The notes under the pieces were generated by a model, which saw only the letters and a list, made by a program, of their open reading frames with translations, made no database searches and had not been told where the DNA came from. This document shows positions 17,797 through 35,336 of a DNA stretch of 64,000 bases, piece after piece; position 1 is the stretch's first letter, and each line of letters opens with the position of its first letter. The stretch lies in contig JAAAOM010000048.1 of assembly GCA_009908855.1 (NCBI GenBank), forward strand, positions 1 through 64,000. Reading direction: 5' to 3'. The DNA comes from Bacteroidota bacterium. Lineage in GTDB: Bacteria > Bacteroidota > Bacteroidia > Bacteroidales > JAAAOM01. The position numbers and the translations under genes were made by a program.

Positions 17797-17827
17797 AGAT
17801 TTGGCTGATACATGACAAGCCAAATCT
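17797..17827 (-). terminator. Hairpin downstream of uxaE
   Basis: A perfect 10-bp inverted repeat, AGATTTGGCT (17797-17806) and AGCCAAATCT (17818-17827) with an 11-nt loop, lies 14 nt beyond the uxaE stop. No strong T run follows on the minus strand, so it may stabilise the 3' end of the operon mRNA rather than terminate efficiently. A weaker inverted repeat (TTAGG/CCTAA with TTATC/GATAA) lies next to it at 17762-17795. Confidence 0.45.
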
Positions 17828-17840
17828 TTATAAATTATAT

Positions 17841-19088
17841 CTAACCGAGAAACAATGTTTTCAGATGTTTCTCAAGGAGATTGAATTTTACATTCTTCTC
17901 AATCACATCACGATATTGATCCAAGGCTTTCATGTAGTCATCGCCTAATTCAACAGCAATTTTATACCCCACATGAATTAATTGCCTGAAAGCCGGATTG
18001 TAAAGATTATTTTTTTTATCGTGAGTTAATGCACCAACATATTGTTCGCTCGACCAGGAATTAACTTCATCCACCGATGGAAGATCTTCTTTTTTCAGGT
18101 CCAAAACAGTTGCATATGGAGCAGTCAATTCATCGTAGCGCTCAAATGAACGGGTATATATTTGTTTGGCCATATCCAAACCATCGCCGCCAGCCTGAGC
18201 CAAGCCAATCACTTCTTCCAGCCAGGTTGTTCCGGCTGTTTTTACATGAATACCGGCATCGAATTTTTGAATGGCTTTACGTATAGCCGGATAAATAGAA
18301 AATTTATCACTTCCGCTATGTACGCTTAATTTTAAATTTTTAGACATGCCCAAATTTTCAACAGCATACTTCACAACGGCCACATCTTGCTCAAACTCTT
18401 TTGCAAACTGGTCGAGATTACCAATATAGTCAATGCCTTTTGCAAAAAGACCTGTGAATTTCGGTGCAATAGTCTGTATTTTAACTTGCTGATGTTGTAA
18501 TTCGGCTAAGATAAAAAACAGTTCAATAGGCGTTTGAGCAGTTTCATATTCATCCATTGATACCTCAGGTATGAAATTATCCTCCCCCTTTTTACTACAG
18601 ATGTGATCATATATTTTTTTCACTTCCAAAACAGCCAGCAGAAAGTTATCAGCGATGTGTTCCAAAAACGCATTGGTCACTTCAAATTCTTCATCAATAC
18701 CAGGAATAGTCATTCTACCAATATATTTGCTATGTCGTTCAATAAACGCGGCTTTTTCTTTATCACCAGACTTTTGGCCAATGAAGTGAGCTACATCGAT
18801 GGTAAAGAAATTACTGTAATCAATAAATTCATCAACAATGGTAAGGCCTATATGGTCGGCATCAACGTAGTAGTTGCCTTCCCATTTGTTGGCAGCAACC
18901 GCTTCTTCGGCCTCTTTGGCAACGGAAGCATGGGTTGTTTTAACGATTTGATGTTCGCGGTATGATTTATTCCAAACCGGTACTACCGGTATCCCCAGTT
19001 TGTTGATTTCCTGAATGGCTGACAATTGAGCACTTCCTTCTTTACCGAACCGATCACCAGTTCCAAATGAGTATTTTTCTATTAACAT
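17841..19088 (-). CDS. uxaE: Tagaturonate epimerase UxaE
   Basis: A 415-residue protein of the tagaturonate/fructuronate epimerase family, described in Thermotoga, which interconverts D-tagaturonate and D-fructuronate. Family-like segments include the start KYSFGTGDRFGKEG, then YYVDADHIGLTIVDEFI and FTIDVAHFIG (probable metal- or substrate-binding His and Asp), LSVHSGSDKFSIYPAI (about residue 255) and VKTAGTTWLEEVIGLA. It lies 7 nt behind eda, in the same direction as the rest of the cluster. Together with UxaC it lets galacturonate enter the fructuronate-mannonate branch, so no altronate enzymes (UxaB/UxaA) are needed, and none are seen here. Cytoplasmic. The assignment rests on motif recall plus strong context. 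Confidence 0.8.
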   Translation of the reverse strand: MLIEKYSFGTGDRFGKEGSAQLSAIQEINKLGIPVVPVWNKSYREHQIVKTTHASVAKEAEEAVAANKWEGNYYVDADHIGLTIVDEFIDYSNFFTIDVAHFIGQKSGDKEKAAFIERHSKYIGRMTIPGIDEEFEVTNAFLEHIADNFLLAVLEVKKIYDHICSKKGEDNFIPEVSMDEYETAQTPIELFFILAELQHQQVKIQTIAPKFTGLFAKGIDYIGNLDQFAKEFEQDVAVVKYAVENLGMSKNLKLSVHSGSDKFSIYPAIRKAIQKFDAGIHVKTAGTTWLEEVIGLAQAGGDGLDMAKQIYTRSFERYDELTAPYATVLDLKKEDLPSVDEVNSWSSEQYVGALTHDKKNNLYNPAFRQLIHVGYKIAVELGDDYMKALDQYRDVIEKNVKFNLLEKHLKTLFLG

Positions 19089-19095
19089 GACTTAA

Positions 19096-19770
19096 TTATT
19101 TAGTTCTTATTTTTTTGATTTCGTTTATGGTATCTCTAACCGTTTTTTCAATGGCGGTAAAATCTTTTTTCTGAATACTTTCCTTGCTGAACAGCGCTGA
19201 GCCCATCCCAACACAACAAACACCTGCATCGAACCAGGCTTTTAGGCCTTCCGGATCAGGGCTTGTGCCGCCTGTTGGCATAATATTGGACCAGGGGCAT
19301 GGAGCTGTAACACCTTTTACAAAGGCAGGTCCACCGACTTGCTTTGCTGGAAATATTTTAACAATTTCTGCACCTAATTCTTCTGCCTGATTTATTTCCG
19401 ACAACGAACCGCAACCGGGCATCCAGCCAATCTTACGGCGATTACAAATTTTAGCCATCTCCGGGTTTAATACAGGAGATACAATGAAATTAGCCCCTAA
19501 CTGCATATATAAGGAACAGGTTCCTGGTTCAACAATGGAACCAACGCCCATAATCATTTCCGGGCAATTGATTTCAATCCATTTATTAAGTTCAGCAAAT
19601 ACTTCATGGGCAAAATCACCCCGATTGGTAAATTCAAATACCCTGGCACCTCCATCATAGCATGCTTTGACCACATTTTTCATAATTTCCAGGTTATTGT
19701 GGTAATACAATGGAACCAAGCCAGTTTCTATTACATTGTTATATACATCTAATCTTTTAAATCTTGCCAT
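19096..19770 (-). CDS. eda: KDPG/KHG aldolase
   Basis: A class I aldolase splitting 2-keto-3-deoxy-6-phosphogluconate into pyruvate and glyceraldehyde-3-phosphate, the last step of the uronate and Entner-Doudoroff pathways. It has 224 residues. Visible motifs are GARVFEFTNRGDFA (the catalytic Glu strand), IMGVGSIVEPGTC and FIVSPVLNPEMAKIC, and EIVKIFPAKQVGG, which carries the Schiff-base lysine. MPTGGTSPDPEGLKAWFDAG contributes the phosphate-binding loop. The gene lies between kdgK (27 nt) and uxaE (7 nt), on the same strand. It is intact. Confidence 0.95.
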   Translation of the reverse strand: MARFKRLDVYNNVIETGLVPLYYHNNLEIMKNVVKACYDGGARVFEFTNRGDFAHEVFAELNKWIEINCPEMIMGVGSIVEPGTCSLYMQLGANFIVSPVLNPEMAKICNRRKIGWMPGCGSLSEINQAEELGAEIVKIFPAKQVGGPAFVKGVTAPCPWSNIMPTGGTSPDPEGLKAWFDAGVCCVGMGSALFSKESIQKKDFTAIEKTVRDTINEIKKIRTK

Positions 19771-19797
19771 TTTTTTAAATTTTAATGAGGCTTATTA

Positions 19798-20832
19798 TTA
19801 GCGGCTTACACGTCCTGATGCGTCACCACCCATGAGTTTTTTTACTTCTTCCACTGTAACACGGTTATAATCACCATGGATAGTATGTTTCAAACAGGAA
19901 GCCGCTACGGCAAAATTCAATGCCGATTGCAGGTCATCTTTATAATTTATTAGACCATATATCAAACCACCCATAAATGAATCACCCCCTCCTACACGGT
20001 CAACAATATGAGTGATGTCATAAGTAGGTGCCTCATATAACTTTTTGCCGTCATAAAGCACACCCGACCACGTATTATGGTTCGCACTTTTCGAGCCGCG
20101 TAATGTGGTAATCACGTATTTACAACGTGGATAATCCTTCATGATCTGCTTGGAAATATCGAGGTATGATGCACCTGTAACTTCTCCTCCACTTACATTC
20201 ACGTTTTCTGGTTTGTAACCAAGGGACATTTCGGCATCTTCTTCATTACCCAGAAGCACATCGCATCCTTCCACAAGTTTGGTCATCACCTCTTGAGCAG
20301 ATTTTCCGTATTTCCATAATTTCTTGCGGTAATTTAAATCCGCCGATACGGTAATTCCTCTGTCATTGGCAGCTTTAATAGCTTCGGCACAAACATCAGC
20401 CGCTCCCTGAGATATAGCGGGTGTAATACCGGTCCAATGGAACCAGGAAGCACCTTCAAATACTTTGTCCCAATCGATCATTCCTTTCTCTATTTGAGAA
20501 ATGGCTGATCCGGCACGGTCATAAATCACCTTACTTGCCCGGCTTACAGCACCAGTTTCAAGGAAATAAACACCCATGCGTTCGCCACCATAAATAATTT
20601 GGTCAGTATCTACTCCAAATCCTCTTAATTCTCTTACACAGGCATGTGCAAGATCATTTTTAGGTAGCCGTGTTACAAAACTAACCGGCACTCCGTAATT
20701 GGCCAACGATACTGCAACATTTGATTCACCACCGCCAAAGATAGCATTCATGGTGTTTGATTGTCCTATTCGTTCGTACAATGGTGTAGCCAGCCGTAGC
20801 ATGACTTCTCCGAATGTTACTACTTTTTCCAT
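19798..20832 (-). CDS. kdgK: 2-keto-3-deoxygluconate kinase (PfkB family)
   Basis: A ribokinase-family enzyme that phosphorylates 2-keto-3-deoxygluconate to KDPG using ATP. At 344 residues it starts with VVTFGEVMLRLATP, typical of KDG kinases. IFGGGESNVAVSLANYG is PfkB signature 1. The C-terminal signature, normally DTxGAGD, reads DRVGGGDSFMGGLIYGL and keeps the catalytic Asp. It begins 5 nt after uxaC ends and precedes eda by 27 nt. The second PfkB gene at 29134-30216 shares the GGGD form but has different substrate-side motifs, so this copy, next to eda, is the more secure KDG kinase. Confidence 0.9.
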   Translation of the reverse strand: MEKVVTFGEVMLRLATPLYERIGQSNTMNAIFGGGESNVAVSLANYGVPVSFVTRLPKNDLAHACVRELRGFGVDTDQIIYGGERMGVYFLETGAVSRASKVIYDRAGSAISQIEKGMIDWDKVFEGASWFHWTGITPAISQGAADVCAEAIKAANDRGITVSADLNYRKKLWKYGKSAQEVMTKLVEGCDVLLGNEEDAEMSLGYKPENVNVSGGEVTGASYLDISKQIMKDYPRCKYVITTLRGSKSANHNTWSGVLYDGKKLYEAPTYDITHIVDRVGGGDSFMGGLIYGLINYKDDLQSALNFAVAASCLKHTIHGDYNRVTVEEVKKLMGGDASGRVSR

Positions 20833-20837
20833 GTCAA

Positions 20838-22238
20838 TTAAAAATTAAAAAAGTTTTTAGCATTATTATAGCAAATATCTTCAACCATATTTCCCAGCAT
20901 GGCCTTATCATCAGGCAGTTCTCCATTTTCCACATCATTGCCCAAAAGGTTGCAAAGGATGCGACGGAAATATTCATGACGAGGAAATGACAGAAAACTT
21001 CTTGAGTCGGTTAACATCCCCACGAAACGGCTCAATAACCCGAGGGTGGATAACACATTCATCTGATCTTCCATGCCATATTTTTGGTCAAGGAACCACC
21101 AGCCTGATCCCCATTGCATTTTACCTGGTACGGAACCATCCTGGAAATTACCGATCATGGTACCCATGATATGATTATCAGCCGGATTTAGATTATATAA
21201 AATGGTACTGGCCAATTTATTGTCCTTGTCAAGCTTATCAAAGAAACGAGACATAGGGGTTGCCAACTGATAATCACCAATTGAATCAAAACCTGTGTCA
21301 GGCCCAAGCGCATTGAATAAACGGGTATTGTTGTTGCGCATAGCACCCACATGATATTGTTGTACCCAACCTTTTTCATGATCCATCACGCCAAAATCAT
21401 AGAGCAATGCCGATTTAATTTTGTCAATCTCGTCAGCATTCAAGGCTTTGCCACTACGGGCTTTTTTGAAGATGGAATCAACCTCTTTTTGCGTATAAGG
21501 TGTGGCAAAGAAATTTTCGATACCATGATCGGATAACCGACAGCCCATGCTGTGAAAGAAGTCATGACGTATCTTCAAAGCTTCCAGCAAATCCTGGTAT
21601 GTTTTTATTTCCTTTTCGGCTACGGTAGCCAACGCATCCAGGTATTCATTGTATTTCTGCAGGTCATCAACAGCCATGGCTTTATCGGGTCTCCAGGCCG
21701 GATAAATTTTGAATTCTGCATCGCTGTTACTTAGTTGTTTATGATATTCAAGTGAATCAACCGGATCATCAGTGGTACAAATCACTTCAACATTCATTTT
21801 CTTAATCAACCCCTGTACCTGGTATTCATTTGTCTGTAACATCGATGATGCCTTGTCATATACTCGTTTTGCCGATTCTTTATTAAGCAAATCTTCAATG
21901 CCAAAATATCTTCTTAACTCCAGATGAGTCCAGTGATAAAGCGGGTTACGCAATGTATGCGGAACTGTTTCCGCCCACTTTTCAAATTTTTCCCAATCAG
22001 AGGCATCGCCGGTACAAAACCGTTCTTCTACCCCATTGGTGCGCATAGCACGCCATTTATAATGATCACCATACAGCCAGGGCTGCGTCACATTCTCATA
22101 CTGCTTATTTTCAGCCATTTGCTGAGGTATAAGGTGGCAATGATAGTCGATGATCGGCATTTTTTTGGCATGCTCGTGATATAAATATTCCGCTGTCTTG
22201 GTTTGCAGCAAGAAGTTATCATCTATAAAATTTTTCAT
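20838..22238 (-). CDS. uxaC: Uronate isomerase
   Basis: Converts D-glucuronate to D-fructuronate and D-galacturonate to D-tagaturonate, the entry step of hexuronate catabolism. At 466 residues it has the full family length and belongs to the amidohydrolase superfamily. The metal-binding HxH is in PIIDYHCHLIPQQMAEN (about residues 29-45). Other conserved segments are GDHYKWRAMRTNGV, GCRLSDHGIENFFATP and MLTDSRSFLSFPRHEYFRRI near the C-terminus. It is the first intact gene after the TRAP transporter and a decayed dehydrogenase, and is 5 nt from kdgK. Cytoplasmic. Confidence 0.97.
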   Translation of the reverse strand: MKNFIDDNFLLQTKTAEYLYHEHAKKMPIIDYHCHLIPQQMAENKQYENVTQPWLYGDHYKWRAMRTNGVEERFCTGDASDWEKFEKWAETVPHTLRNPLYHWTHLELRRYFGIEDLLNKESAKRVYDKASSMLQTNEYQVQGLIKKMNVEVICTTDDPVDSLEYHKQLSNSDAEFKIYPAWRPDKAMAVDDLQKYNEYLDALATVAEKEIKTYQDLLEALKIRHDFFHSMGCRLSDHGIENFFATPYTQKEVDSIFKKARSGKALNADEIDKIKSALLYDFGVMDHEKGWVQQYHVGAMRNNNTRLFNALGPDTGFDSIGDYQLATPMSRFFDKLDKDNKLASTILYNLNPADNHIMGTMIGNFQDGSVPGKMQWGSGWWFLDQKYGMEDQMNVLSTLGLLSRFVGMLTDSRSFLSFPRHEYFRRILCNLLGNDVENGELPDDKAMLGNMVEDICYNNAKNFFNF

Positions 22239-22272
22239 AGTAGTATTTTTTCAAATTATGATCAATTAAATA

Positions 22273-22535
22273 TTAAATATCGTTTTCGCCCTTTACATAA
22301 CCAAAGTTAGCCAGTATACCCCCATCAACAAATAATATCTGACCGTTTACAAAATTACTGGCTTTCGATGCCAGAAATACGGATGCACTTTCAATTTCTT
22401 CCGGTTCAACCCATCTGCCTGCAGGTGTGCGGGTCATAGCCTAGGTCGTTGAAAGGATGATTTCCTTCACGAATAGGCGCAGTTTGTTCGGCAGCAATGT
22501 ATCCCGTACCAATGCCATTCACCTGTATTTATCAT
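22273..22535 (-). pseudogene. C-terminal remnant of an SDR dehydrogenase
   Basis: A minus-strand fragment with two out-of-frame blocks of a short-chain dehydrogenase: VNGIGTGYIAAEQTAPIREG, then, after a frame change, [20 protein letters not shown] and [19 protein letters not shown], ending in a stop at 22273. The C-terminal pattern matches gluconate 5-dehydrogenase or KduD-type SDRs, enzymes of gluconate and keto-deoxygluconate metabolism. The catalytic Ser-Tyr-Lys part and the Rossmann motif are gone. It occupies most of the 333-nt gap between dctM and uxaC, so it was once a member of this operon. Confidence 0.8.
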
Positions 22536-22571
22536 TTTGATTAAACCATTGTATTTAAATAACTTACCACT

Positions 22572-23870
22572 CTAAAACCCAAGTATTTTTGGTATAAACA
22601 AGCTTAATTGAGGAATAAATGTAACCAGCATTAAGCTAATAATCATTACAATATACATTGGTATTAATGGCCTTACAATTGAATGAATACCGATGTTGGC
22701 CACACTGCAACCCACAAATAGAACTGTGCCGACCGGTGGCGTAATAAGTCCTACACATAGGTTCATGATCAGTACAATTCCAAAATGAATCGGATCCATA
22801 CCTAATTGCTGGGCCACAACAGGTAAAAATATTGGGGTAAAGATCAATACCGCAGGTGTCATATCCATAAAAACACCTACAACCAATAGAATAAAATTGA
22901 TGATTAGCAGCACAACAAACGGATTATCGCTGATAGTAAGCAATCCTTTACTTACATTCTGCGGAATATTTTCATACGACATAATCCATGACAAACCAAT
23001 GGAAGTAGCAACCAGTAATAGAACAATACAGGTTGTTGCCAGTGTTTTTAATATAATATCGGGTAAGTTTCGCCATCGAATTTCTTTGTAGATAAAGGAA
23101 AGGATGAGCGCATAAACAACGGCAATGGCTGATGCCTCGGTAGCAGTAAAATAACCCGCTATCATACCACCAATAACAATTACCAATAACAACAAACTGG
23201 GAATGGCATCCAGGGTTTTTCTGGCCGCTTCGCCCATTGTAACCTTACCTGCACGTGGGTATTTATTTGCATATGCATAAGTCGCGCCAACCGCCATAAG
23301 TAAAACTCCCATGATTATACCGGGTATATAACCTGCTACAAATAATGCAGAAATTGATACACCACCACTCGCCAATGAATAGATAATAAGAATATTGCTT
23401 GGTGGTATGATTAGCCCGGTAGTAGCGGAACTTGCATTTATTGCAGCACTGAAATTTTCATCATAGCCTTCTTCTTTCATACGTGGGTGCATAATGGTTC
23501 CGATAGCAGATGCTGATGCTGTCGCAGAGCCGGAAATGGCGCCGAATAACATATTTGATATAACATTCACAAAAGCCAGTCCGCCGGGTAAACGTCCCAC
23601 TATTACCTTCGCAAAATCAATCAATCTAATAGCTATCCCCCCGCGATTCATGATCTGGCCGGCAAATATAAAGAAAGGAATAGCCAAAAGCGTAAAACTA
23701 TCCAATCCTGTAGCCATTCGTTGTGCCATGGTGGTAACAGCAGGTAAAAAATCCATACTTACAAGCATGGTCAGAATACCGGATATTCCAATGGCATAAG
23801 CGATAGGGACACTTAATCCTAAAAATATTACAAATGATGTGACAAGCACAATTATTCCTAACCAATCCAT
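22572..23870 (-). CDS. dctM: TRAP transporter large permease (DctM)
   Basis: The main membrane subunit of a tripartite ATP-independent periplasmic transporter, moving a carboxylate substrate with Na+. It has 432 residues and about 12 membrane segments. Typical motifs are LSVPIAYAIGISGILTML, ATGLDSFTLLAIPFFIFAGQ and FGAISGSATASASAIGTIMH, then SATTGLIIPPSNILIIYSLA, and NLCVGLITPPVGTVLFVGCS near the C-terminus. It starts 2 nt after the dctQ stop. Since the neighbours are uronate enzymes, the substrate is probably a hexuronate or aldonate (inference). Confidence 0.95.
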   Translation of the reverse strand: MDWLGIIVLVTSFVIFLGLSVPIAYAIGISGILTMLVSMDFLPAVTTMAQRMATGLDSFTLLAIPFFIFAGQIMNRGGIAIRLIDFAKVIVGRLPGGLAFVNVISNMLFGAISGSATASASAIGTIMHPRMKEEGYDENFSAAINASSATTGLIIPPSNILIIYSLASGGVSISALFVAGYIPGIIMGVLLMAVGATYAYANKYPRAGKVTMGEAARKTLDAIPSLLLLVIVIGGMIAGYFTATEASAIAVVYALILSFIYKEIRWRNLPDIILKTLATTCIVLLLVATSIGLSWIMSYENIPQNVSKGLLTISDNPFVVLLIINFILLVVGVFMDMTPAVLIFTPIFLPVVAQQLGMDPIHFGIVLIMNLCVGLITPPVGTVLFVGCSVANIGIHSIVRPLIPMYIVMIISLMLVTFIPQLSLFIPKILGF

Positions 23871-23872
23871 AA

Positions 23873-24388
23873 TTATTCAGGTATTTGTTTTAGTAAATTC
23901 TTTTGATTCATAAAATCGTCAATGACATAGTAACTTATTAATATTCCTGAAAAAGGTAAGACAAGATACACATAGCCCAACGGTATTTGCATGGCGGCAG
24001 ATACCTGACCAAAAACTAAATTTTTGTAGCATAACCATGCACCACCAATGCACAAAACACCAACCGCAAAAAACAGAATAATTGCATTGATCAGTTGGTT
24101 CAGTTTTATTTTTCCTTTGTCACCAAGCTTGCTTTTTAAAAGATCAATAGCGAGGTGATGTTTTTTTCCTGTTCCGTATGCAGCGCCCATCAAGGCAACC
24201 CATATTAATAAGAACCCGGCCAGTTCATCGGTGAACGCATACAATGGTGTTGGTATTTGCGTATCGAACTGACTGGTTAATAATCTGTTCACATATCGGC
24301 TTAACACCTGCCAAACAACATCCAATACCAGAATGATCATCAGCACAACAATGACTACTTCTATGATTTTATCAATTTTTTTCTTCAT
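23873..24388 (-). CDS. dctQ: TRAP transporter small permease (DctQ)
   Basis: The small membrane subunit of the TRAP transporter, about 171 residues with four membrane segments: IIEVVIVVLMIILVLDVVWQ, the LAGFLLIWVALMGAAYG region with the conserved Trp, AIILFFAVGVLCIGGAWLC and VYLVLPFSGILISYYV. The frame is open up to 24436, but the start MKKKIDKIIEV at 24388 gives the normal DctQ N-terminus. It overlaps the end of dctP by 17 nt, so translational coupling is likely. The downstream dctM starts 2 nt later. Confidence 0.9.
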   Translation of the reverse strand: MKKKIDKIIEVVIVVLMIILVLDVVWQVLSRYVNRLLTSQFDTQIPTPLYAFTDELAGFLLIWVALMGAAYGTGKKHHLAIDLLKSKLGDKGKIKLNQLINAIILFFAVGVLCIGGAWLCYKNLVFGQVSAAMQIPLGYVYLVLPFSGILISYYVIDDFMNQKNLLKQIPE

Positions 24389-25400
24389 CGTCCTCAGTTT
24401 TAATGTCCGGAGCCATGGCCTGAATTTTTTCGACAAGCGGTCTTAGCACTTCATTCTCTTTGGCTTCCTCGTACAAGGGTTTAACTTTTTCTCTAAACTT
24501 AGATTTATCGGGATGATATACTTCCACACCGGCTTTTTGAACTTCGCGCAAGGCTTCTTCTTCTGATTCTGCCCATAATTTTTTTTGATATTCCACTGAT
24601 TCATCAACAGCTTCCTGCAACCACTGCTGTTCCTGTTCGGTAAGTTTATCCCATATAAGTTTACTAATGAGCATGACATCTGGTACAGAAGTGTGTTCAT
24701 CCAGCGAATAATATTTACAAACCTCATAATGCCGTGAAAGATAAAAACTTGGCGGGTTGTTCTCTGCACCATCCACTACACCGCTCTGTAATGCCGTATA
24801 AAGCTCACCCCATGAAATGGGTGTTGGTGTGCCGCCAAGAGCTTTCACCATGTTTACCGCTGAAATACTTTTCATCACCCGTATTTTCATCCCTTTCAGG
24901 TCATCCGGCTCTTTAATCGGTTTTTCCTTGGTATAAAAACTTCTTGATCCGGCGTCGTAAAAGCACAAACCACGTAGCCAGATATCCTCACCAGCCATTA
25001 ACATTTTTTGTCCTACTTCACCCTCTAACACATTGTAATAATGTTCTTCATTTACAAAAATGTAAGGCAAGCCAAGAACCTTGTATTCTTCAATAAAGCC
25101 TTCCAATACAGCTGATGATACTTTGGTAATCGCCAAACTACCTATCTGAAGTAATTCGAGGTTTTCTCTTTCTGATCCCAACTGTCCACTCGGATAAATA
25201 TCAATGGTTACCTGCCCGTCCGATTTTTCTTTTAATCGCTCAGCCATAAATTCCATGGCAATATGTACTGAATGCGATGGGTCCAGACTATGTGCCAATT
25301 TCAGCGTCTTTTGTTCTTTTGTGCCGCATGAAATGATGGTTATAATAATAAGCAGCACCCGGATAAATACCGGTATTCCAAAATTGTTTTTACGATTCAT
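24372..25400 (-). CDS. dctP: TRAP transporter substrate-binding lipoprotein (DctP)
   Basis: The periplasmic solute-binding subunit, 342 residues. The N-terminus is a lipoprotein signal (hydrophobic VLLIIITIISC, then GTKEQ), so it is probably tethered to the inner membrane. The DctP hallmark is LKGMKIRVMKSISAVNMVKA (about residues 165-185), where the Arg salt-bridges the substrate carboxylate. It is followed by GGTPTPISWGELYTALQSG and VVDGAENNPPSFY. Its position next to UxaC, UxuA and UxuB suggests galacturonate, glucuronate or a related sugar acid as ligand (inference). Upstream is a deleted gnd copy, 26 nt away. Confidence 0.93.
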   Translation of the reverse strand: MNRKNNFGIPVFIRVLLIIITIISCGTKEQKTLKLAHSLDPSHSVHIAMEFMAERLKEKSDGQVTIDIYPSGQLGSERENLELLQIGSLAITKVSSAVLEGFIEEYKVLGLPYIFVNEEHYYNVLEGEVGQKMLMAGEDIWLRGLCFYDAGSRSFYTKEKPIKEPDDLKGMKIRVMKSISAVNMVKALGGTPTPISWGELYTALQSGVVDGAENNPPSFYLSRHYEVCKYYSLDEHTSVPDVMLISKLIWDKLTEQEQQWLQEAVDESVEYQKKLWAESEEEALREVQKAGVEVYHPDKSKFREKVKPLYEEAKENEVLRPLVEKIQAMAPDIKTEDDEEKN

Positions 25401-25425
25401 TATTTTATTTCAGTATAATTTACCA

Positions 25426-26263: not shown

Positions 26264-26320
26264 CCGGTTATTGTTTATTTGTGTTTTACAACAATCCTTA
26301 GTTATTCGACATCAACTGCA

Positions 26321-27772
26321 TTAAACATTGTAAGTTGAGGAAGCTGTTTCACCGCCGCGCCCGGTCCAGTTGGTATGAAAATATTCACCCCGTGGTTTAT
26401 CAAGTCGCTCATAAGTATGTGCGCCAAAATAATCGCGCTGCGCCTGTAACAGGTTGGCAGGGAGTCGTTCGGAACGATAACCATCAAAATAAGCCAGGGC
26501 AGTTGAAAATGCCGGTGTAGGAATACCATTGGCAACGGCCGTTCCTATCACTCTTCTCCAACCAGGTTGGGCTTCATCTACCTTGGCTTTGAAATATGGA
26601 TCGAGCAATAAATTTAACAAGTCAGGATTGTTATCAAAGGCTTCTTTTATTTTTCCCAAGAAAGCAGATCTAATAATACATCCACCGCGCCACATAAGTG
26701 CTATACCACCATAATTCAACTCCCAGCCATATTCGCTGGCCGCTTCTCTCATCAGCACATAGCCCTGCGCATAAGAAACAATTTTGGAAGCAAACAAGGC
26801 TTGTCGGATATCCTCAATAAATGCCTTTTTATCGCCCTGAAAAGCAGGCTTAGGGCCTGATAAAATTTTTGATGCTGCCACCCTTTCATCCTTTTGAGCT
26901 GACAAACATCTTGAAAATACCGCCTCACCTATAAGAGTTAGCGGAATACCCAAATCCAGGGCAGAGATACCGGTCCATTTTCCGGTTCCTTTTTGTCCGG
27001 CAGTATCGAGAATCTTATCAACCAATGGTTCGCCCTCTTCTTTAAAAGCAAGAATTTCACTGGTGATTTCAATCAAATAACTATCCAAATCTCCCTTATC
27101 CCATTCGGCAAATACTTCATGCATTTCACCGGGCGACATTCCCAACAAATCTTTCATAATCTGATATGCTTCACATATCAACTGCATATCTCCGTATTCG
27201 ATGCCATTGTGCACCATTTTCACAAAATGGCCGGCACCGTTTTCCCCCACCCAGTCGCAGCAGGGTACATTGTCTTCTACTTTGGCGGCTATTGACTGAA
27301 ATATTGGTTTCACATACTGCCACGCTTCTTTTGATCCGCCCGGCATAATTGAAGGGCCTTTCAGAGCTCCCTCTTCCCCGCCTGAAACCCCCGTTCCGAT
27401 GTAACGCAATCCTTTACTTTCAACATATTCTGTACGACGATTGGTGTCAGGGAAATGACTGTTACCGCCATCAATCAGGATATCACCCGGTTCGAGTAGC
27501 GGAATTAGTTGATCGATAATGGTATCCACCGGTTTTCCGGCTTTTACCATGATCATTACTTTGCGTGGTCGTTCAAGCGACTGAACCAACTCTTCTAATG
27601 ATTTGGTGCCTTTGATGTTCTTGCCTTTTGCACGGCCATCCACAAATTTTTCAACCTTTTCAATTGAGCGGTTATACACTGAAACAGTGAATCCTTTGCT
27701 CTCCATGTTTAATACAAGGTTTTCGCCCATAACAGCCAAACCTATTAAGCCAATATCTGATAATTCTTTCAT
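26321..27772 (-). CDS. gnd: 6-phosphogluconate dehydrogenase, decarboxylating
   Basis: Oxidises 6-phosphogluconate to ribulose-5-phosphate and CO2, producing NADPH. At 483 residues it has the full length of the dimeric long-chain form. The N-terminal Rossmann motif is [17 protein letters not shown], the substrate motif is [10 protein letters not shown] (about residues 101-110), then [20 protein letters not shown], the catalytic site [17 protein letters not shown] (Lys near 185), and the conserved C-terminus [19 protein letters not shown]. Its presence inside a uronate operon is unusual, because the classical uronate route does not need it. It directly follows the LarA-like gene (55-nt gap). 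Confidence 0.96.
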
Positions 27773-27827
27773 TATTTAATAAGTTTAAAATTTAATGTTC
27801 AGACTCAATGTAACATCGGTCATTGTA

Positions 27828-29099
27828 TTATATAAATCGTTCTTTATAGGCCCATAGACCTTGTGCCGGGTTCGATATATAATATATTTCTTCCCCGTCA
27901 GACAAGGTATTGAAACCGTCTTTCAGTTTTTCCGGGTTGTATCGCCGCATCATCTCTTTCAAATCGGCATATTGAAAATAAACCGATTCAATTTCTTCTT
28001 TCGATACATGTCCGGGACAATACGTGATTGAAAACCGTCCTTCCGAACTTCCATGAATTAGGTGAGCGGCTGCACTGAGGTTGTTTTGCAATTCTTCATT
28101 TTCCTCCACCGCTTTTAACGTAGCGTTAGTACCACAATAGCCGTATTTTCTGATCAACCGGTCAATTTCAGCATCTTCTCCAAATTCTTTTAACCCCGGG
28201 GCCAGCACAATCAATTCTCCTCCATCGTCCAGTGCCATCCGCGACCGGTAAATACTTTTGTTGCCCAGCCAGGTGCTTTTAAATTCAGTCGGATCCATGT
28301 AGGCCACTACCTTTTTTAAAGGATTGTCTAACAGCGTAAAGTTGGTTTTAAGTGATAAATCGGCAGCATCCGTAAAAACAGTCTCGTCATCGCCTATATA
28401 CAATCCTTTAACAGCCATTTCACCATTTTCATCCCTTCCGACAACCGTATGAACATAAACAACCGGAAGGTGCTTCATAAAATACTCAGCCGCGTAGTTT
28501 AACAACTTACGTACCGGATTTTGTGCACGTCCCATAAGTCGTTCCATGCCATAAGCAGCACCCACAAAATGGCTTTTGTTTATACCTTCTGAACCACCTG
28601 TTCCTACAAATAAGTTTTTGTTGTAATTGGCCATCCCAATTACTTCGTGGGGTAGTACCTGACCAACGGAAAGAATCAGGTCATGTCCTCCTTCCCAAAT
28701 AAGTTTATTAAGCTGGGCAGGCCATTCATAATCAATGGCATTGTCGGTAATTTCAGCCACGTATTCTCCGGGGACTTTACCGATGGTAACCACATCGGTT
28801 CTCCAATTATGAGGACGGAACAGCTCTTTCGGAACATTCCCGAACATTTCAGTGAGTTGCTCGTCCGTCATTGGTGTATGAGTGCCCAAAGCAGGTAAAA
28901 TATCCTTTACACTATCTTTGTAATACTCGTAAATGGAGGAGGTAATTGTTCCTGCCCGCGAATGAAAGCGGGTAAAATCAGGAGGTACCACCAACACTTT
29001 ATTTCTTTTTCCAAGCTTGTGCAAAGCTGTATAAAGTCCTTCTCTGAGATCATCAGAGGAAAGACTCATATTTTCTGATCCTTTACTGAAATAAATCAT
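27828..29099 (-). CDS. LarA-family (nickel-pincer type) racemase/epimerase, substrate unknown
   Basis: A 423-residue member of the lactate racemase LarA superfamily (DUF2088). The residues known from Lactobacillus LarA align with fixed spacing. D41 and R44 in PPDFTRFHS match D72 and R75. H151, K161 and H177 match H174, K184 and H200 with a constant offset of 23. H74 in ALGTHTPMT corresponds to H108. K184 carries the nickel-pincer nucleotide in LarA, so the cofactor is very likely used here. The protein lacks the typical GFSGGxK loop and reads GMANYNK instead, which points to a distinct substrate. It lies between a PfkB kinase (34-nt gap) and gnd (55-nt gap), so a sugar acid such as mannonate or gluconate is my preferred substrate. 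Cofactor synthesis genes (larB, larC, larE) are not in the window. Confidence 0.8.
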   Translation of the reverse strand: MIYFSKGSENMSLSSDDLREGLYTALHKLGKRNKVLVVPPDFTRFHSRAGTITSSIYEYYKDSVKDILPALGTHTPMTDEQLTEMFGNVPKELFRPHNWRTDVVTIGKVPGEYVAEITDNAIDYEWPAQLNKLIWEGGHDLILSVGQVLPHEVIGMANYNKNLFVGTGGSEGINKSHFVGAAYGMERLMGRAQNPVRKLLNYAAEYFMKHLPVVYVHTVVGRDENGEMAVKGLYIGDDETVFTDAADLSLKTNFTLLDNPLKKVVAYMDPTEFKSTWLGNKSIYRSRMALDDGGELIVLAPGLKEFGEDAEIDRLIRKYGYCGTNATLKAVEENEELQNNLSAAAHLIHGSSEGRFSITYCPGHVSKEEIESVYFQYADLKEMMRRYNPEKLKDGFNTLSDGEEIYYISNPAQGLWAYKERFI

Positions 29100-29133
29100 A
29101 AATAATGCTGTTTAAGATACACTGATTGCACGC

Positions 29134-30216
29134 TTATCTTTTCACACGGGCATTTCCTTCCCAAATGCTCCAGACCATCTCCTCATCGGCAGGCTGGCCG
29201 TAATCGGTAAGAAAGGTTGTTGCCAGTGCACCTGTAGCCCATCCGAATTGCACCCATTTTTCGGCATCCCAGCCTTTAAGAATACCGTATAGCAAACCAC
29301 CAACAAAGCCATCCCCACCACCAATACGGTCTAAAACATTAATTCTGCGTGGCTCAATAACTTGCCAGTTATTATCACCTTCCAACATGATGGCACCCCA
29401 TAAATGCTCGTTGGTGCTCACTACCTGGCGTAGTGTTGTGGCATATACCGAAGCATTGGAGAACGATTTTTTAACACGTCCGATCATTTCTTTGAAGTTG
29501 TCGATTTTATCCTGAATCGCTTTTCCACCCGCTTCAGGGCCTTCAATGCCCAGGCATAACTGAAAATCTTCTTCGTTACCAACCAAAATATCAGAGATAG
29601 ATGCGATTTCAGTGAATATTTCCCGAAGCTCTTTTTCACGACCTTGCCAAAATGTAGCCCTGTAATTCAAATCAAAAGAGATGGCAGTACCATGTTTCCT
29701 GGCCGCCCGGGCAATTTCAAGGCAAAATTGACTTGTTTGTTCTGATAACGCTCCTATTAATCCTGAAAGATGCACAATTTGCACGCCTTCCTGCCCAAAT
29801 ATCCGATCAACATCAAAATCTTTTATGTTCAACGTTCTTCCCACCTCACCGGCACGGTCGTTTTGTACGCGCGGCCCCCTGGACCCGTAGCCACTATCGG
29901 CAATATTGAATTGATGACGATATCCCCACGGACCACCCTGATCTACTTCAGGTCCTTCATAATCCATGTGCCGACTTTTCAAATTGCTCTTAATAAAACC
30001 GGCAACCGGACTGTCTTTTACAAAGGTGGTTAACACCTTAACAGGTAAACCGAGAAAAGAGGGTACGCTGGCCACATTGGTCTCAGCGCTGGTGGCCTGC
30101 ATATAAAATGTATCACTGGAATGAACGGGTTGTCCATTAATGGGTGTTATTCTTGCACCCATGCTGGTTGGCACCAGCATGGAATATTTAGCATGGTTTT
30201 TTAAATTGATACTCAT
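29134..30216 (-). CDS. PfkB-family sugar acid kinase, second copy in cluster
   Basis: A 360-residue ribokinase-family kinase. Recognisable parts are the substrate-side region ATSAETNVASVPSFLGLPVK (PfkB signature 1), then GPWGYRHQFNIADSG, ISFDLNYRATFWQ and the catalytic signature DRIGGGDGFVGGLLYGI (about residues 310-327). The LNYR and GNEED motifs are shared with the KDG kinase at 19798-20832, but an insertion around residues 90-125 and the different N-terminus set it apart. Its place just before the LarA-like gene and gnd suggests a sugar acid substrate such as gluconate. A redundant KDG kinase is the alternative. A 163-nt gap upstream leaves room for a promoter, but none was recognised. Confidence 0.85.
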   Translation of the reverse strand: MSINLKNHAKYSMLVPTSMGARITPINGQPVHSSDTFYMQATSAETNVASVPSFLGLPVKVLTTFVKDSPVAGFIKSNLKSRHMDYEGPEVDQGGPWGYRHQFNIADSGYGSRGPRVQNDRAGEVGRTLNIKDFDVDRIFGQEGVQIVHLSGLIGALSEQTSQFCLEIARAARKHGTAISFDLNYRATFWQGREKELREIFTEIASISDILVGNEEDFQLCLGIEGPEAGGKAIQDKIDNFKEMIGRVKKSFSNASVYATTLRQVVSTNEHLWGAIMLEGDNNWQVIEPRRINVLDRIGGGDGFVGGLLYGILKGWDAEKWVQFGWATGALATTFLTDYGQPADEEMVWSIWEGNARVKR

Positions 30217-30379
30217 TGTTTTTTTTGTTTGTTTGACTACCGTGTTACATAATTAAAACTGTTTGATTGAATCCATCATCCATACTCTCTCGCCATAGGA
30301 AATCATGAATTTTCTCCGGTATTTTTTACTTTTGATAAGTTAATCCGACACTCATATCCAATTTTATAAAATATGTTAT

Positions 30380-31600
30380 CTAATTGTTATAAATAACGCC
30401 ACTGTTTAGAATCCCCATTTCTAGTCCACGTAATTCAGCCATACCTCTCAACAAACCAATTGCGGAATAACCCGGATTGGTCTTCTTTTTAAGATCGTCA
30501 AGAATAGTATGACCATGGTCTGCACGCATGGGTATTTGTTCATCCCGTCGGTTAGCAGCGTGTCGTCGCTTCTGTTCCTTCAATACCGCTACCATCACTT
30601 GATACATGGGTACATCGCCACGCAAATGACTTGCTTCGTGAAAACTACCCATTGGGTCTCTTTGTGTACTGCGCAGGTGTAGAAAATTGATCTTATCACC
30701 CAATCGTTCAACAATACCTGTCAAATCGTTGTCGGGTCTAACACCAAGTGAGCCGGTACAAATACACAGCCCATTGTAGACCGAATTATAAATATTTGTG
30801 ATGTACTGCAAATCTGCCTCCGTACTTACCACACGTGGCAGGCCAAATAAAGAAATTGGGGGATCATCGGGATGAATGGCCATTCTTACATCCGATTCTA
30901 TGGCCACTGGTATTATTTGTTCGAGAAAATATCTTAGATTTTGGCGGTATTTGGTATCGTCAATGGAGTCGTAATTAGCCAAACGTTCACGAAATTCATC
31001 AAGGGTATATCCCTCCTGTCCACCCGGCAAACCAGCTATAATGTTTTTTTGCAATACATATCGTTCTTCATCATTCATTGACTCAAATCGGGCTTTTGCC
31101 GCATCTTTAATTTCGTCAGAGTATTCTTTTTCCGCTCCCGGACGCTGTAACATATACAAATCAAAGGCAACATATTCAGGAAAATCAAAAGCCAAAGCTC
31201 TAGCGCCATCTTCCAGTTCCAGTGCAAGATTGGTCCGTGTCCAATCAACTACAGGCATCCAATTGTATGTTATTACCGGGATACCAACTTTACCTACATT
31301 GCGTATACTTTGTTTATATTTATCAATCCATTCATCGCGATTTGGCTTTCCTTGCTTAATATCCTCATGTACAGGAATACTTTCAATAACCGACCAGGTT
31401 AATCCGCGAGAGCGTAGAGGATTCTTGTCATCCCGTTCGATTAGTTTTTTTCTTTCCAATAAGGCTTCTTCAGTCCACACTTCTCCAATGGGAATTTCGT
31501 GCAATGCGGTAACAATACCTGTTGCTCCAGCCTGCCTTATATCGGCCAAAGTTACCGGATCACTGGGGCCATACCAACGCCACGTCTGTTCCATTTCCAT
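30380..31600 (-). CDS. uxuA: Mannonate dehydratase
   Basis: Dehydrates D-mannonate to 2-keto-3-deoxy-D-gluconate, using Fe2+ or Mn2+. At 406 residues it has the family's length. The N-terminus EQTWRWYGPSDPVTLADIRQ is nearly diagnostic, as are IAGLPGGQEGYTLDEF, MAIHPDDPPISLFGLPRVVS (metal-binding His), GSLGVRPDNDL, FLHLRSTQRDPMGSFHEA and RADHGHTILDDL near the C-terminus. It follows uxuB by 49 nt. With UxuB, KdgK and Eda it completes the fructuronate branch. Confidence 0.97.
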   Translation of the reverse strand: MEMEQTWRWYGPSDPVTLADIRQAGATGIVTALHEIPIGEVWTEEALLERKKLIERDDKNPLRSRGLTWSVIESIPVHEDIKQGKPNRDEWIDKYKQSIRNVGKVGIPVITYNWMPVVDWTRTNLALELEDGARALAFDFPEYVAFDLYMLQRPGAEKEYSDEIKDAAKARFESMNDEERYVLQKNIIAGLPGGQEGYTLDEFRERLANYDSIDDTKYRQNLRYFLEQIIPVAIESDVRMAIHPDDPPISLFGLPRVVSTEADLQYITNIYNSVYNGLCICTGSLGVRPDNDLTGIVERLGDKINFLHLRSTQRDPMGSFHEASHLRGDVPMYQVMVAVLKEQKRRHAANRRDEQIPMRADHGHTILDDLKKKTNPGYSAIGLLRGMAELRGLEMGILNSGVIYNN

Positions 31601-31649
31601 ATGTTAAAAAATTTATTAATTGAAATCATTTATTATTAAATTTCAGGTG

Positions 31650-32501
31650 CTAAACACCGCCAAAGGCACTATAACCACCATCTACAGGGATGCAAATCCC
31701 TGTCACGAATTTGGATATATCTGATAATAAATAGGCTACTGTACCCTGTAACTCTTCAACCTCACCATATCTTTCCATAGGTGTGTTGGCCAGAATTTTT
31801 TCACCCCTGACAGTTGGTTTACCGGTGTTTTCGTCTACAAGAAGGAATCGGTTCTGATTGGTAAGGAAAAATCCCGGTGCAATCGCATTGACCCGTATTC
31901 CCATTTTTGCCACATGCACTGATAACCATTCGGTAAAATTATTTACAGCGGCCTTAGCTGCTGAGTATGCCGGAATTTTTGTAAGCGGCTTATATGAATT
32001 CATGGATGATACATTCAACACCGCACCTTTTTTATGATCGAGCATATCACGTGTAAAAACCATAGTAGGTAACAATGTTCCTTTAAAATTCAGGTCAAAA
32101 ACCCATTGAAAGCCTTCCATTTCCAAGCCATAAAATGATTTTTCCAATTCTGACAGATTCGATTCATCCAGTTTTTCAATTTGTGTGGTTGCTTTTGGTG
32201 AATTCCCCCCGGCACCATTAATCAAATAATCAATGCTGCCCAATTCCGAATTGATTTTCGCTTTGGCCTCTTCCAACGATGTTTTATCTAACACATTAGC
32301 TTTAAAGCCCTTTACGGTTGTACCGCTTTGTTTTTCTACTTCCTGAGCCACTTTAACAGCCTGTTCTTCATTGATGTCCAAAATAGCTATTTTTAATCCA
32401 ATTGTAGCCAATCCTTTGGCGATGGATGAACCGATTACTCCGCCACCGCCTGTGATTACACAAACCTTGCCTTTTAAATCATTGAAACTTAATTCTGTCA
32501 T
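31650..32501 (-). CDS. uxuB: Fructuronate reductase / D-mannonate oxidoreductase, SDR type
   Basis: Reduces D-fructuronate to D-mannonate. It is a classical SDR of about 283 residues: GxxxGxG in VITGGGGVIGSSIAKGLA, the NAG motif as INGAGGNSPKAT, catalytic Ser in VLNVSSMNSY, and YSAAKAAVNNF with the YxxxK pair. The open frame extends to 32552, but the ATG at 32501 (MTELSFNDLKGKV) gives the normal N-terminus. It then overlaps the end of lacI by 23 nt, which suggests coupled translation with the regulator. The SDR type corresponds to Bacillus subtilis UxuB (YjmF) rather than the mannitol-dehydrogenase type of E. coli. Its position before uxuA fits. Confidence 0.88.
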   Translation of the reverse strand: MTELSFNDLKGKVCVITGGGGVIGSSIAKGLATIGLKIAILDINEEQAVKVAQEVEKQSGTTVKGFKANVLDKTSLEEAKAKINSELGSIDYLINGAGGNSPKATTQIEKLDESNLSELEKSFYGLEMEGFQWVFDLNFKGTLLPTMVFTRDMLDHKKGAVLNVSSMNSYKPLTKIPAYSAAKAAVNNFTEWLSVHVAKMGIRVNAIAPGFFLTNQNRFLLVDENTGKPTVRGEKILANTPMERYGEVEELQGTVAYLLSDISKFVTGICIPVDGGYSAFGGV

Positions 32502-33582
32502 TCCTTTTAGTGTTAATATAATATTTAAGATTTTCTTTAATAATAATGTCAATAGGGCTATGATTTTCTTCTGGTATTTCTTTATGAGAAATCAGGTGAC
32601 TAAACATGGCCATTACACTTTTAAACCCTTGTTCTTCAGGTTTTTGACCAATCAGAAAATCAATGGTGTCATTCTCCAGGTATTTTAAATTCTCATCAAT
32701 TAAATCGAAGCCAACCAGCAGCAGATCTTTATTGTTTAGATTTTCAAGAAATGAAGCCACCTTAAAAACCCGTGAATTCGGAACAAATACACCTTTAATA
32801 TTCCTATGTTGCTCAAAAATGTTTTGCAATGTTGAATCAGGTTCATCTGATTCAAGTAAATCTATTTCCGTTGAGATTATCTGATATTTATTAACGGGTT
32901 GTTTTTTAGAAATATAGTTGTTAAAGCCCTCTTCTCTCAAACGTAAATGACGTGTAATTACTTTATGGTTTGCCAATTTAACGATTAGTATACTACCTCC
33001 ATCAGGCAGGGCACGACAAATAATCTTCCCGGCTACATAACCACTTTGTTTTGCATCCTGTCCGAAATAGGATAAATTATGGCCATTTTCCAAATTGATA
33101 TCTATAAATATATAAGGTATCTGGTGCGCATCCAGCAATTCCATAAAATCCAGCGATGATTCCCTGAATACCGGATTGAATATTACACCATCAGGTTTTG
33201 CACTGATAACTTCATGGATGATTTTATTAAAGGAACGCTCGTTTGTGGCGTTAAAAGTGTAAGTTTCAATAATGGTGTTATAATCATTAATTTCACCGGC
33301 TGCTTGTTGAATACCTGACAGCGGCATATCCCAATATGGATTGTTATCACTGGCATCAGGAATTAAAACAGAAATTTTGTGTGTTTTTCGGGAAGCAAGA
33401 GATTTGGCCAATACATTTGGTGTATATCCAAATTTATTAACAATGTCCATTATCTTTTGCCGGGTTTCCTCTTTTACCTCTCCCCTGTTATGCAATACAC
33501 GATCAACCGTTCCGATTGATACATCGGCATGATTTGCAATATCCTTAATGGTAATTTTTTTATTTCCGGCGTTATATTCCAA
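32479..33582 (-). CDS. LacI-family regulator of the uronate cluster
   Basis: A 367-residue transcription factor. The N-terminal HTH reads TIKDIANHADVSIGTVDRVL with the hinge following (PNVLAKSLASRK, about residues 55-66). The C-terminal part is a periplasmic-binding-type sensor domain (ISVLIPDASDNNPYWDMPL, then FDLIDENLKYLENDTIDFLI). It is the first gene of the cluster, overlapping uxuB by 23 nt. Two near-identical 14-bp palindromes flank its promoter (see separate entries), so autoregulation and control of the operon are likely. The ligand is probably a pathway intermediate such as a uronate or KDG (inference). A repressor is the default expectation for the family. Confidence 0.93.
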   Translation of the reverse strand: MEYNAGNKKITIKDIANHADVSIGTVDRVLHNRGEVKEETRQKIMDIVNKFGYTPNVLAKSLASRKTHKISVLIPDASDNNPYWDMPLSGIQQAAGEINDYNTIIETYTFNATNERSFNKIIHEVISAKPDGVIFNPVFRESSLDFMELLDAHQIPYIFIDINLENGHNLSYFGQDAKQSGYVAGKIICRALPDGGSILIVKLANHKVITRHLRLREEGFNNYISKKQPVNKYQIISTEIDLLESDEPDSTLQNIFEQHRNIKGVFVPNSRVFKVASFLENLNNKDLLLVGFDLIDENLKYLENDTIDFLIGQKPEEQGFKSVMAMFSHLISHKEIPEENHSPIDIIIKENLKYYINTKRNDRIKFQ

Positions 33583-33607
33583 TTTATCAACAAGTTAGCT
33601 GTAAAAA

Positions 33608-33621
33608 CGTGTACGTCCACG
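33608..33621. promoter_or_regulatory. LacI-type operator 1
   Basis: CGTGTACGTCCACG is a 14-bp palindrome with a central CG and one mismatched pair. It lies immediately downstream of the -7 element on the minus strand, so it covers the expected transcription start of lacI. It matches operator 2 in 12 of 14 positions. Confidence 0.7.
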
Positions 33622-33622
33622 A

Positions 33623-33630
33623 CAAAGGTA
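33623..33630 (-). promoter_or_regulatory. -7 promoter element of the uronate operon
   Basis: On the minus strand the sequence reads TACCTTTG, an exact TAnnTTTG match, located between the two operators and about 40 nt before the lacI start codon at 33582. No TTTG is seen at -33; operator 2 occupies that region. Confidence 0.65.
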
Positions 33631-33650
33631 TAAAAATTTATTGTTTTTTC

Positions 33651-33664
33651 CGTGTGCGTGCACG
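33651..33664. promoter_or_regulatory. LacI-type operator 2
   Basis: CGTGTGCGTGCACG shares the frame CGTGTnCGTnCACG with operator 1. It is centred 43 bp from operator 1, about four helical turns, so a looped or cooperative complex across the promoter is possible. Confidence 0.65.
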
Positions 33665-33785
33665 AATATTTATGCATGACCACTCAACACATATATCCGT
33701 TCATAATACCGTAAACCCAACGGATGAAAATAATTGGACACATTAAATAGTTGGCCAATAATTGCTAAATAAACTGAAGCAAGGC

Positions 33786-34738
33786 CTATAATACATCCAA
33801 ATTAATCAATACATTTTCAGCGGCGTTTGAAATATTACCATTCCCTTCTCTTTTAAATATTATCAACTCTTCAATTATTGATGGCGGCAGATGATCAAGG
33901 TCTCCGGCAAAGTTTATGGCCATAAGCCGACCGTAAGTCGAACCATTTTTAAACACAACCCTTTTCTGTCGCGGTAACGGACCGCCATGGTCACTCCATA
34001 CAACAATGATAGTGCTGTCCATCAAGCCCTTCCGATCAAGTTCATCCAAAAAAACACTAATTTGATGGTCCACCAGAGAAATGTTTGAGTAACTTCGGGA
34101 AATATCCCGTCTCACCAATTTGTTATCGTCAGGAAAATAAGATGGTACATGTACTTTTTCCGGATCGGTTAACAATTGCTCCCATTCAAGTCCCCAAATA
34201 CGTGATTCATGCGTTGTTGTCAGATTAAATACAGCGAAAAACGGTTGCCCTTCCTTACGGTTTCTGTAATGTGCAAACCTACCTGACATCGCATCCCATG
34301 TACCTTCGGGTGTATCAAAGTTATAATCTTCTTTAGCATTGTTGGTGCAATAATATCCCGCTTTCTGCATGAATTCAGTAAAACAGACCATATTTAATGG
34401 CGGCTCAATACCACTGGTACGCATATTATGTGTACCCATCCGCGTAGGATACATACCGCTAATTATAGAAGAACGACTCGGTGCGCAAACACCTGATACC
34501 GTATAGGCATTATCAAAAACAACACCCTCTGATGCAAGTTTATTAATGGTTGCAGTTTGTATGGTTGAATCGCCATAACAAGCTAACTGGCAACCAATGT
34601 CCTCAATGCTAAACCAGATAATATTGGCTGAAAATCAAATGCTACCTTAGATAAATCGTCAATTTGTTGCTTATCATTTTCATTGGTGCAGGAAAGTAGT
34701 GCAATAAATATTGGCAGAAGCAGTAATAGTTTTTTCAC
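33786..34738 (-). pseudogene. Broken sulfatase gene (S1 family)
   Basis: A minus-strand arylsulfatase remnant. A GTG at 34738 begins a lipoprotein-like signal (KKLLLLLPIFIALLSC, then TNENDK). After about 30 more codons the frame shifts at about 34630-34640, where NIIWFSIEDIGCQLACYG resumes in another frame. The sulfatase signature VCAPSRSSIISG is intact, with the Cys that would become formylglycine. Later motifs VVWSDHGGPLPRQKR (metal-binding SDHGG) are present, but the usual C-terminal third is missing and the frame ends in unrelated-looking sequence. The 5' frameshift and C-terminal loss make it nonfunctional. It lies just upstream of lacI in the same direction, consistent with a former sulfated-polysaccharide function of this locus. 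Confidence 0.88.
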
Positions 34739-35028
34739 AACTCAAATTTTTAATAATTAGCCATGATAAGTATATGGATAAACGAAATATCAGTCAATAT
34801 AAAAAAGTCCTTTCAAATACCCACGGGATGCGCTAAAATAATTAAAATTTAACGAGCGGATTTCGGTTTTTAATCAGACTCAAAATAAATGTTAAATCCA
34901 CTTGATTTATGATTAAAATTATTATTTTTAATCATCTATTTTAGTAAAGTATATGACAGGGAAAAAAGATATTATTGAATCATTTAGCGAAATCAATCAA
35001 CTTTCTTTTAATTAAAAATATTATTTTC
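34739..35028. other. AT-rich intergenic region with an inverted repeat
   Basis: No gene was recognised here. It is very AT-rich and contains one perfect 10-bp inverted repeat, ATGATTAAAA (34909-34918) and TTTTAATCAT (34926-34935), with a 7-nt AT loop. It separates the decayed end of the uronate region from rpsU and probably holds control elements for either side. Confidence 0.6.
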
Positions 35029-35036
35029 TATATTTG
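35029..35036 (+). promoter_or_regulatory. -7 promoter element of rpsU
   Basis: TATATTTG matches TAnnTTTG exactly and lies 31 nt upstream of the rpsU ATG. No clear -33 TTTG is present. Confidence 0.6.
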
Positions 35037-35067
35037 CGCCTCAAAAAATCAAAAACAGGGTTATCAA

Positions 35068-35259
35068 ATGATTATCATACCAATAAAAGAAGGTGAAAAT
35101 ATAGAACGTGCCTTAAAAAAATTCAAAAGAAAGTTTGAAAAAACCGGTGTAATTAAGGAGTTAAGGGAAAGGCAACACCATGTAAAACCCTCTGAAGAGC
35201 GCCGTGAAACGATTAAAAGAGCGAAGTATAAACAACATCTTCAACAGGAAGAAGAGTAA
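35068..35259 (+). CDS. rpsU: 30S ribosomal protein bS21
   Basis: A small basic ribosomal protein of 63 residues: MIIIPIKEGENIERALKKF, then RKFEKTGVIKELRERQHHVK and a basic, Lys/Arg-rich end. The open frame extends upstream to 34975, but the -7 element at 35029-35036 and the conserved N-terminus fix the start at 35068. In Bacteroidota bS21 helps hide the anti-Shine-Dalgarno end of 16S rRNA (established for Flavobacterium), which explains why most genes here lack Shine-Dalgarno sequences. The upstream sequence of rpsU itself lacks a strong one. Followed by xerC 77 nt later. Confidence 0.95.
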   Translation: MIIIPIKEGENIERALKKFKRKFEKTGVIKELRERQHHVKPSEERRETIKRAKYKQHLQQEEE

Positions 35260-35336
35260 TGTGATCGCTTTAAAGCGCTGAATGCTTGCACAATATCTTA
35301 CTATCCGGTGAGTTTGGAGTATAAAAGCATTCATTT

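Follow-up and report, generated by a model that had tools for sequence, protein, structure and literature searches.

Two candidate LacI-family operators at the promoter of a uronate operon in a Bacteroidota bacterium

Introduction

Why does one promoter carry two copies of the same palindrome, and which protein would use them? Both copies lie between positions 33608 and 33664 of the window, i.e., the whole stretch of 64,000 nt analyzed here. A preliminary description had read them as LacI operators at the transcription start and the -33 region of an autoregulated uronate operon, joined in a looped repression complex.

Some expectations can be taken from the literature. For the primary promoter of Bacteroides, TAnnTTTG is given as the -7 element and TTTG as the one near -33 (PMC7366714). 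Within the LacI family, operators are reported as even palindromes for 1251 of 1303 regulators and with a central CG for 1173 of 1303 (PMC4052901). Among the Bacteroides proteins, UxuR (BT1434), UxaR (BT0824) and KdgR (BT0487) are LacI-family uronate regulators derived from comparative genomics (PMC3878776).

Given the observations below, we consider it highly probable (roughly 0.85) that the two sites serve as operators of the adjacent UxuR-like LacI regulator, which would repress its own operon.

Relatives and Site Scoring

Loci with related regulators were collected from several genome sets. Among 99 same-order genomes, 22 (own genome included) encode the regulator or a relative (E up to 1e-40), and a further search of the order gave 18 of 393 genomes (own included, E up to 1e-85). 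Closer relatives were added by four family searches (E up to 1e-80) with hits in 16/23, 5/16, 2/7 and 2/28 genomes. The scan of named genomes covers the best 80 of a larger number of loci, all of them Bacteroidota going by their titles. The nearest relative found (L133) is 54% identical. Redundancy filtering by upstream identity dropped 3 loci and left near-copies; a filter at 90% protein identity dropped 9, such that 130 loci were left, and the 75 best-scoring of these non-redundant regulators entered the tree.

The rule for accepting a site was drawn up with the relatives already in view, which biases the position frequencies in its favor. Labels of site places were assigned with three forms of the promoter word, and the distance plot used TAnnTTTG alone. 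The label "both" of locus L037 is due only to a second promoter-like word, i.e., the locus is counted as -33 only; the degenerate second copies of L126 and L152 were left out of "both".

Operators and Promoter

The elements of the control region are the following.

33608..33621, minus strand: operator over the expected transcription start, minus-strand reading CGTGGACGTACACG
33623..33630, minus strand: Bacteroidota -7 promoter element TACCTTTG between the operators, consensus TAnnTTTG (PMC7366714)
33651..33664, minus strand: operator over the -33 region, minus-strand reading CGTGCACGCACACG

A word search recovers the arrangement that had been described, i.e., two sites with a start-to-start distance of 43 bp (about 4.1 helical turns) and a TAnnTTTG between them. 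The word CGTGTNCGTNCACG has exactly two exact matches in the 64,000-nt window, at 33608-33621 and 33651-33664, compared to none in 100 shuffled windows (0/100), which agrees with the earlier remark that the window holds no other copy. With 3 mismatches, the word is not rarer than chance any more (22 found versus 18.4 expected). Counted from the first base of TACCTTTG, the start-point operator begins at +9 and the -33 operator at -34.

Both sites had also been called palindromic. They are even palindromes with a central CG, our sequence test for a LacI-family operator, but their palindromy is only moderate: extended by one flanking base per side, the start-point site pairs at 6/8 positions and the -33 site at 5/8, which is weak. 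Each of them shows a single departure from the family consensus, i.e., 11/12 consensus letters are kept.

Scans of 17000-36000 gave no additional operator with up to two mismatches, and sigma-70 promoters and terminators were found 59 and 12 times there versus 62.5 and 14.2 in shuffles. A terminator-like match at 33651-33664 was rejected, as it is the operator palindrome itself. Further upstream of the promoter, 33786-34740 on the minus strand holds a sulfatase remnant; its 222-aa ORF matches arylsulfatases weakly (E 4e-8) and is apparently interrupted.

Family Operator Word

The palindrome CGTGTnCGnACACG, often in the flanked form CCGTGTnCGnACACGG or with CGA at its end, is found upstream of LacI relatives across Bacteroidota. 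With tolerated variants allowed, it lies within 300 bp upstream of lacI in 86/136 loci (window included), 34 of which have at least two sites. Elsewhere in the same loci, the site rule matches 49 of 1,411,671 positions, i.e., 0.010 per 300 bp. The 50/136 loci without a site under this rule are mostly more distant; among the nearest 30, only 2 have none.

We also compared the family word with the search word of the preliminary description. The latter had found both window sites exactly, but the T that it fixes at position 9 is actually free, and position 10, which it leaves open, normally holds A. Counted across the full set of relatives and in either orientation, it matches 54/111 sites compared to 71/111 for the family word. 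In the nearest clade (26 relatives, 38 sites), where part of the members carry the half site CGTTA in place of CGTGT, this half-site variation weakens both words, such that the earlier word (14 sites) is no worse than the family word (12 sites).

Site Placement Among Relatives

To relate sites to promoters, we plotted 113 site starts of the 90%-non-redundant set against the first base of each nearby TAnnTTTG. Two peaks emerge, one at -34 to -30 (38 loci) and one at +7 to +13 (14 loci), with 0 and 0 loci in these ranges for a control word, the reverse complement of TAnnTTTG. Given the Bacteroides promoter, with its TAnnTTTG at -7 and a TTTG near -33, these two preferred places correspond to the -33 region and to the start point. 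The -33 operator of the window lies inside the former peak and the start-point operator at the modal place of its clade. The sequences themselves thus show that the sites exist, that they are conserved and that they occupy fixed places with respect to the promoter.

Of the nearest 30 regulators (counting the window's), 15 carry both sites. A start-point site is seen in 9, a -33 site in 2 and a site at some other place in 2; the last 2 lack a site. The other 100 divide by label into 33 with a -33 site, 8 with a start-point site, 10 with other places, 48 without any and the mislabelled "both" of L037. In the tree of 75 proteins, all 15 two-site rows fall within one clade of 27 rows (support 99/99). 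Across the whole tree, 7 changes are required to explain the two-site label, compared to a shuffled mean of 13.9, and therefore the two-site layout is typical of the clade, not fixed. Pair spacings within the clade are 33, 35, 41, 42, 43, 44, 45 and 46 bp, with none at 36-40 bp.

The Regulator

The first gene downstream of the promoter is, as described earlier, the regulator gene.

32479..33582, minus strand: lacI-family regulator (UxuR-like), Pfam match, aligned with relatives, TTG start likely

The reading frame holds no ATG ahead of the TTG. The protein matches PF00356 (LacI HTH) with 59.4 bits (cut-off 27) and PF13407 (sugar-binding core) with 141.8 bits (cut-off 35.1), and it is the only regulator of this type in its own genome (E up to 1e-40). 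In the alignment, its C-terminus ends about 10 residues past the conserved core, and its relatives end alike. Structure 1lbg matches query residues 8-176. Read from the sequence against relatives and 1lbg, and given the position of the tetramerization tail in E. coli LacI, no such C-terminal tail was found in the regulator.

Repression and Its Alternatives

Taken together, the phylogenetic footprint, i.e., conserved sites in relatives, argues for the earlier reading as LacI operators, for autoregulation and for the start-point and -33 placement. We infer that this protein binds the sites and represses instead of activating, that it responds to an inducer and that transcription reads through to distal genes. 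One dimer would sit over the -33 region and another over the start point, denying RNA polymerase access on either side of the -7 element; either dimer alone would block the polymerase, and two would do so more tightly. The regulator would hereby repress its own operon with lacI, an SDR gene, uxuA, pfkB, a LarA homologue and gnd. Via read-through, repression would probably extend to the transporter and uxa genes that follow, and an intermediate of the uronate pathway would presumably release the repressor.

If only one of the sites were functional, the other would be a decaying relic of an ancestral layout. A single place suffices in many relatives (of the 100 more distant loci, 33 are labelled -33 only and 8 start-point only), and both window sites deviate from the consensus. 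Against this, 11/12 consensus letters are present in both of them, and the closest relatives (L133, L121 and L151) have retained the pair, with two identical copies 42 bp apart in L133; we thus regard a relic as unlikely.

Less probable still is the looped complex, for which a tetramer or two touching dimers would join the operators and bend the 43 bp between them. The spacing of about 4.1 helical turns would suit it, and the peaks at 22 and 32 bp among LacI-family operator pairs have been read as cooperative binding (PMC4052901). For 11 clade members (near-copies collapsed; spacings of 33, 35 and 41-46 bp), a circular test against a uniform distribution over 33-46 bp gives p of about 0.026, with small n and a null that is poor because the promoter fixes the site places. 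The test value is also equal to three digits for three assumed helical periods, and helical phasing was discarded as a proof of looping. The gap at 36-40 bp hints at same-face binding, but this test is weak. The places are promoter-fixed even in loci with a single site, so the spacing needs no protein-protein contact. Spacings of 33-46 bp within the clade and the lack of a C-terminal extension past the core likewise speak against a loop. Furthermore, 43 bp is short for a DNA loop.

Finally, the sites might be used by another regulator or serve this LacI protein for activation. Activation is conceivable for a site upstream of the -7 element but does not suit start-point sites, and the sites co-occur with this lacI subfamily across many families, which makes either use very improbable.

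Genome-Wide Occurrence

We scanned the genome of the window (3,353,100 bases in 87 contigs, 90% complete), a check that the preliminary description had proposed. The word CGTGNNCGNNCACG matches at the two operators only. Allowing up to two mismatches to CGTGTNCGNACACG, the window pair (1 mismatch each) is accompanied by 11 other sites (2 each), i.e., the pair constitutes the only matches with at most one mismatch in 3.35 Mb. All 11 two-mismatch sites are overlapped by an ORF of at least 90 aa, and for this reason we propose no further target and no wider regulon. The least unlikely extra target among them (L118) sits some 90 bp ahead of an ORF start and falls within the first codons of an opposite-strand ORF.

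Operon and Predicted Uronate Route

The neighbors of lacI are uronate catabolic genes, all on the same strand, i.e., SDR, uxuA, uxaC, uxaE, a kdgK-like and a kdgA-like gene. The genes downstream of lacI are as follows.

31650..32552, minus strand: SDR D-mannonate oxidoreductase (uxuB-like), NF006132 382 bits (cut-off 281), overlaps the lacI end
30380..31600, minus strand: uxuA, mannonate dehydratase, profile match
29134..30216, minus strand: pfkB-family sugar-acid kinase, profile match
27828..29099, minus strand: LarA homologue, nickel-dependent putative hexonate epimerase (group 18), NF052594 670 bits (cut-off 500)
26321..27772, minus strand: gnd, 6-phosphogluconate dehydrogenase, TIGR00873 784 bits (cut-off 427)
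17841..25400, minus strand: TRAP transporter dctPQM, uxaC, kdgK, kdgA and uxaE, profile matches (kdgA named from its own sequence)

The SDR ORF opens at a TTG at 32552; the ATG at 32501 is the more likely start. The genes at 17841..25400 would be under the same control only if they are read through. The whole block had been suggested to be driven from the single control region, which is possible: the block holds no second operator, but two TAnnTTTG words precede uxaC and two gene remnants interrupt the block. Of 13 further gene starts, 12 (that of the gnd remnant included) lack a TAnnTTTG in the 250 bp before them, and uxaC has two.

One remnant is a second gnd at 25426-26263 on the minus strand, between the intact gnd and dctP; its N-terminal part (25832-26263) and C-terminal part (25426-25857) do not share a frame, and no middle part is left. 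The other, at 22239-22571 on the minus strand between dctM and uxaC, appears by eye to be an SDR-type dehydrogenase and contains both TAnnTTTG words before uxaC.

Among the best 80 related loci, SDR is found downstream of lacI in at least 34, SDR with LarA in at least 32, additionally with gnd in at least 23 and with pfkB in at least 19, and uxuA in at least 5; these counts are lower bounds, as several contigs end within the examined stretch. Within this stretch and set, and with the same contig ends, uxuA was not found downstream in 27/32 LarA-bearing loci. The PfkB kinase is 77-85% identical in 27 of the best 80 loci. The genome of the window also encodes the cofactor gene larC (216 bits, cut-off 90).

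According to published work, LarA groups 19 and 20 interconvert D-mannonate and D-gluconate (PMC7583248, PMC11770544), and for group 18 a hexonate substrate was hypothesized by the authors (PMC7583248). The gene set predicts a route from mannonate via gluconate and 6-phosphogluconate to ribulose 5-phosphate. More tentatively, with somewhat less than even odds, the doubly covered promoter may govern a little-described uronate branch, in which LarA would convert D-mannonate to D-gluconate, PfkB phosphorylate it and Gnd oxidize the product into the pentose phosphate pathway, such that the repressor sets the split versus the UxuA route. The operon thus gives a mannonate/gluconate substrate prediction for LarA group 18, and its predicted route from uronates to 6-phosphogluconate is the more interesting by-product of the analysis.

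Relation to Known Systems

The regulator is probably UxuR-like, as judged from its gene neighbors, and the system probably works like the published Bacteroides regulators UxuR, UxaR and KdgR (PMC3878776, PMC4052901), of which it is probably an ortholog of one. They share the LacI family, uronate genes and sequence-based regulons with the window (PMC3878776), and the gene order of the Bacteroides uxuRBA operon matches regulator-uxuB-uxuA (PMC3878776). In contrast to these systems, the window operon additionally has pfkB, the LarA homologue and gnd; the likeness is one of gene content.

Tandem operators of the LacI family agree with the window in the even palindrome, the central CG and autoregulation, and more than one site is reported for about 20% of operons; their distances peak at 13, 22 and 32 bp (PMC4052901), compared to 41-46 bp (and 33-35 bp) here, around a Bacteroidota promoter. 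With the E. coli lac operators and the tetrameric Lac repressor, the window shares an HTH-type repressor acting on an operon; it differs by the spacing of about 43 bp and by a protein without tetramerization tail, and looping is not supported. A literature search found no paper on the two-site layout, which is no proof that none exists.

The window element is ordinary in kind and well supported. It provides an operator word, backed by comparative genomics, for a large and mostly unnamed group of Bacteroidota uronate regulators. Operators are placed with reference to both elements of the Bacteroidota promoter, which can also help to locate promoters in the phylum from sequence.

Variant Layouts

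Nine loci (L037-L040, L044, L046, L048, L050 and L084) have two operators, at a distance of 89-90 bp, in the region that separates lacI from a divergent uxaE. In 9/9 of them, uxaE is on the other strand within 400 bp. Overall, a divergent uxaE occurs in 15 of the best 80 loci, i.e., 9 with an 89-90 bp pair, 5 with a single site and 1 (L061) with a 76 bp pair. The 89-90 bp pairs presumably provide one operator for each of the promoters of lacI and the divergent uxaE, a layout that differs from the window's.

In six further loci (L034, L127, L128, L147, L148 and L149), the -33 operator is CGTTAACGTTAACG and the start-point operator a hybrid of both half-site types, which possibly reflects co-evolution of operator and regulator.
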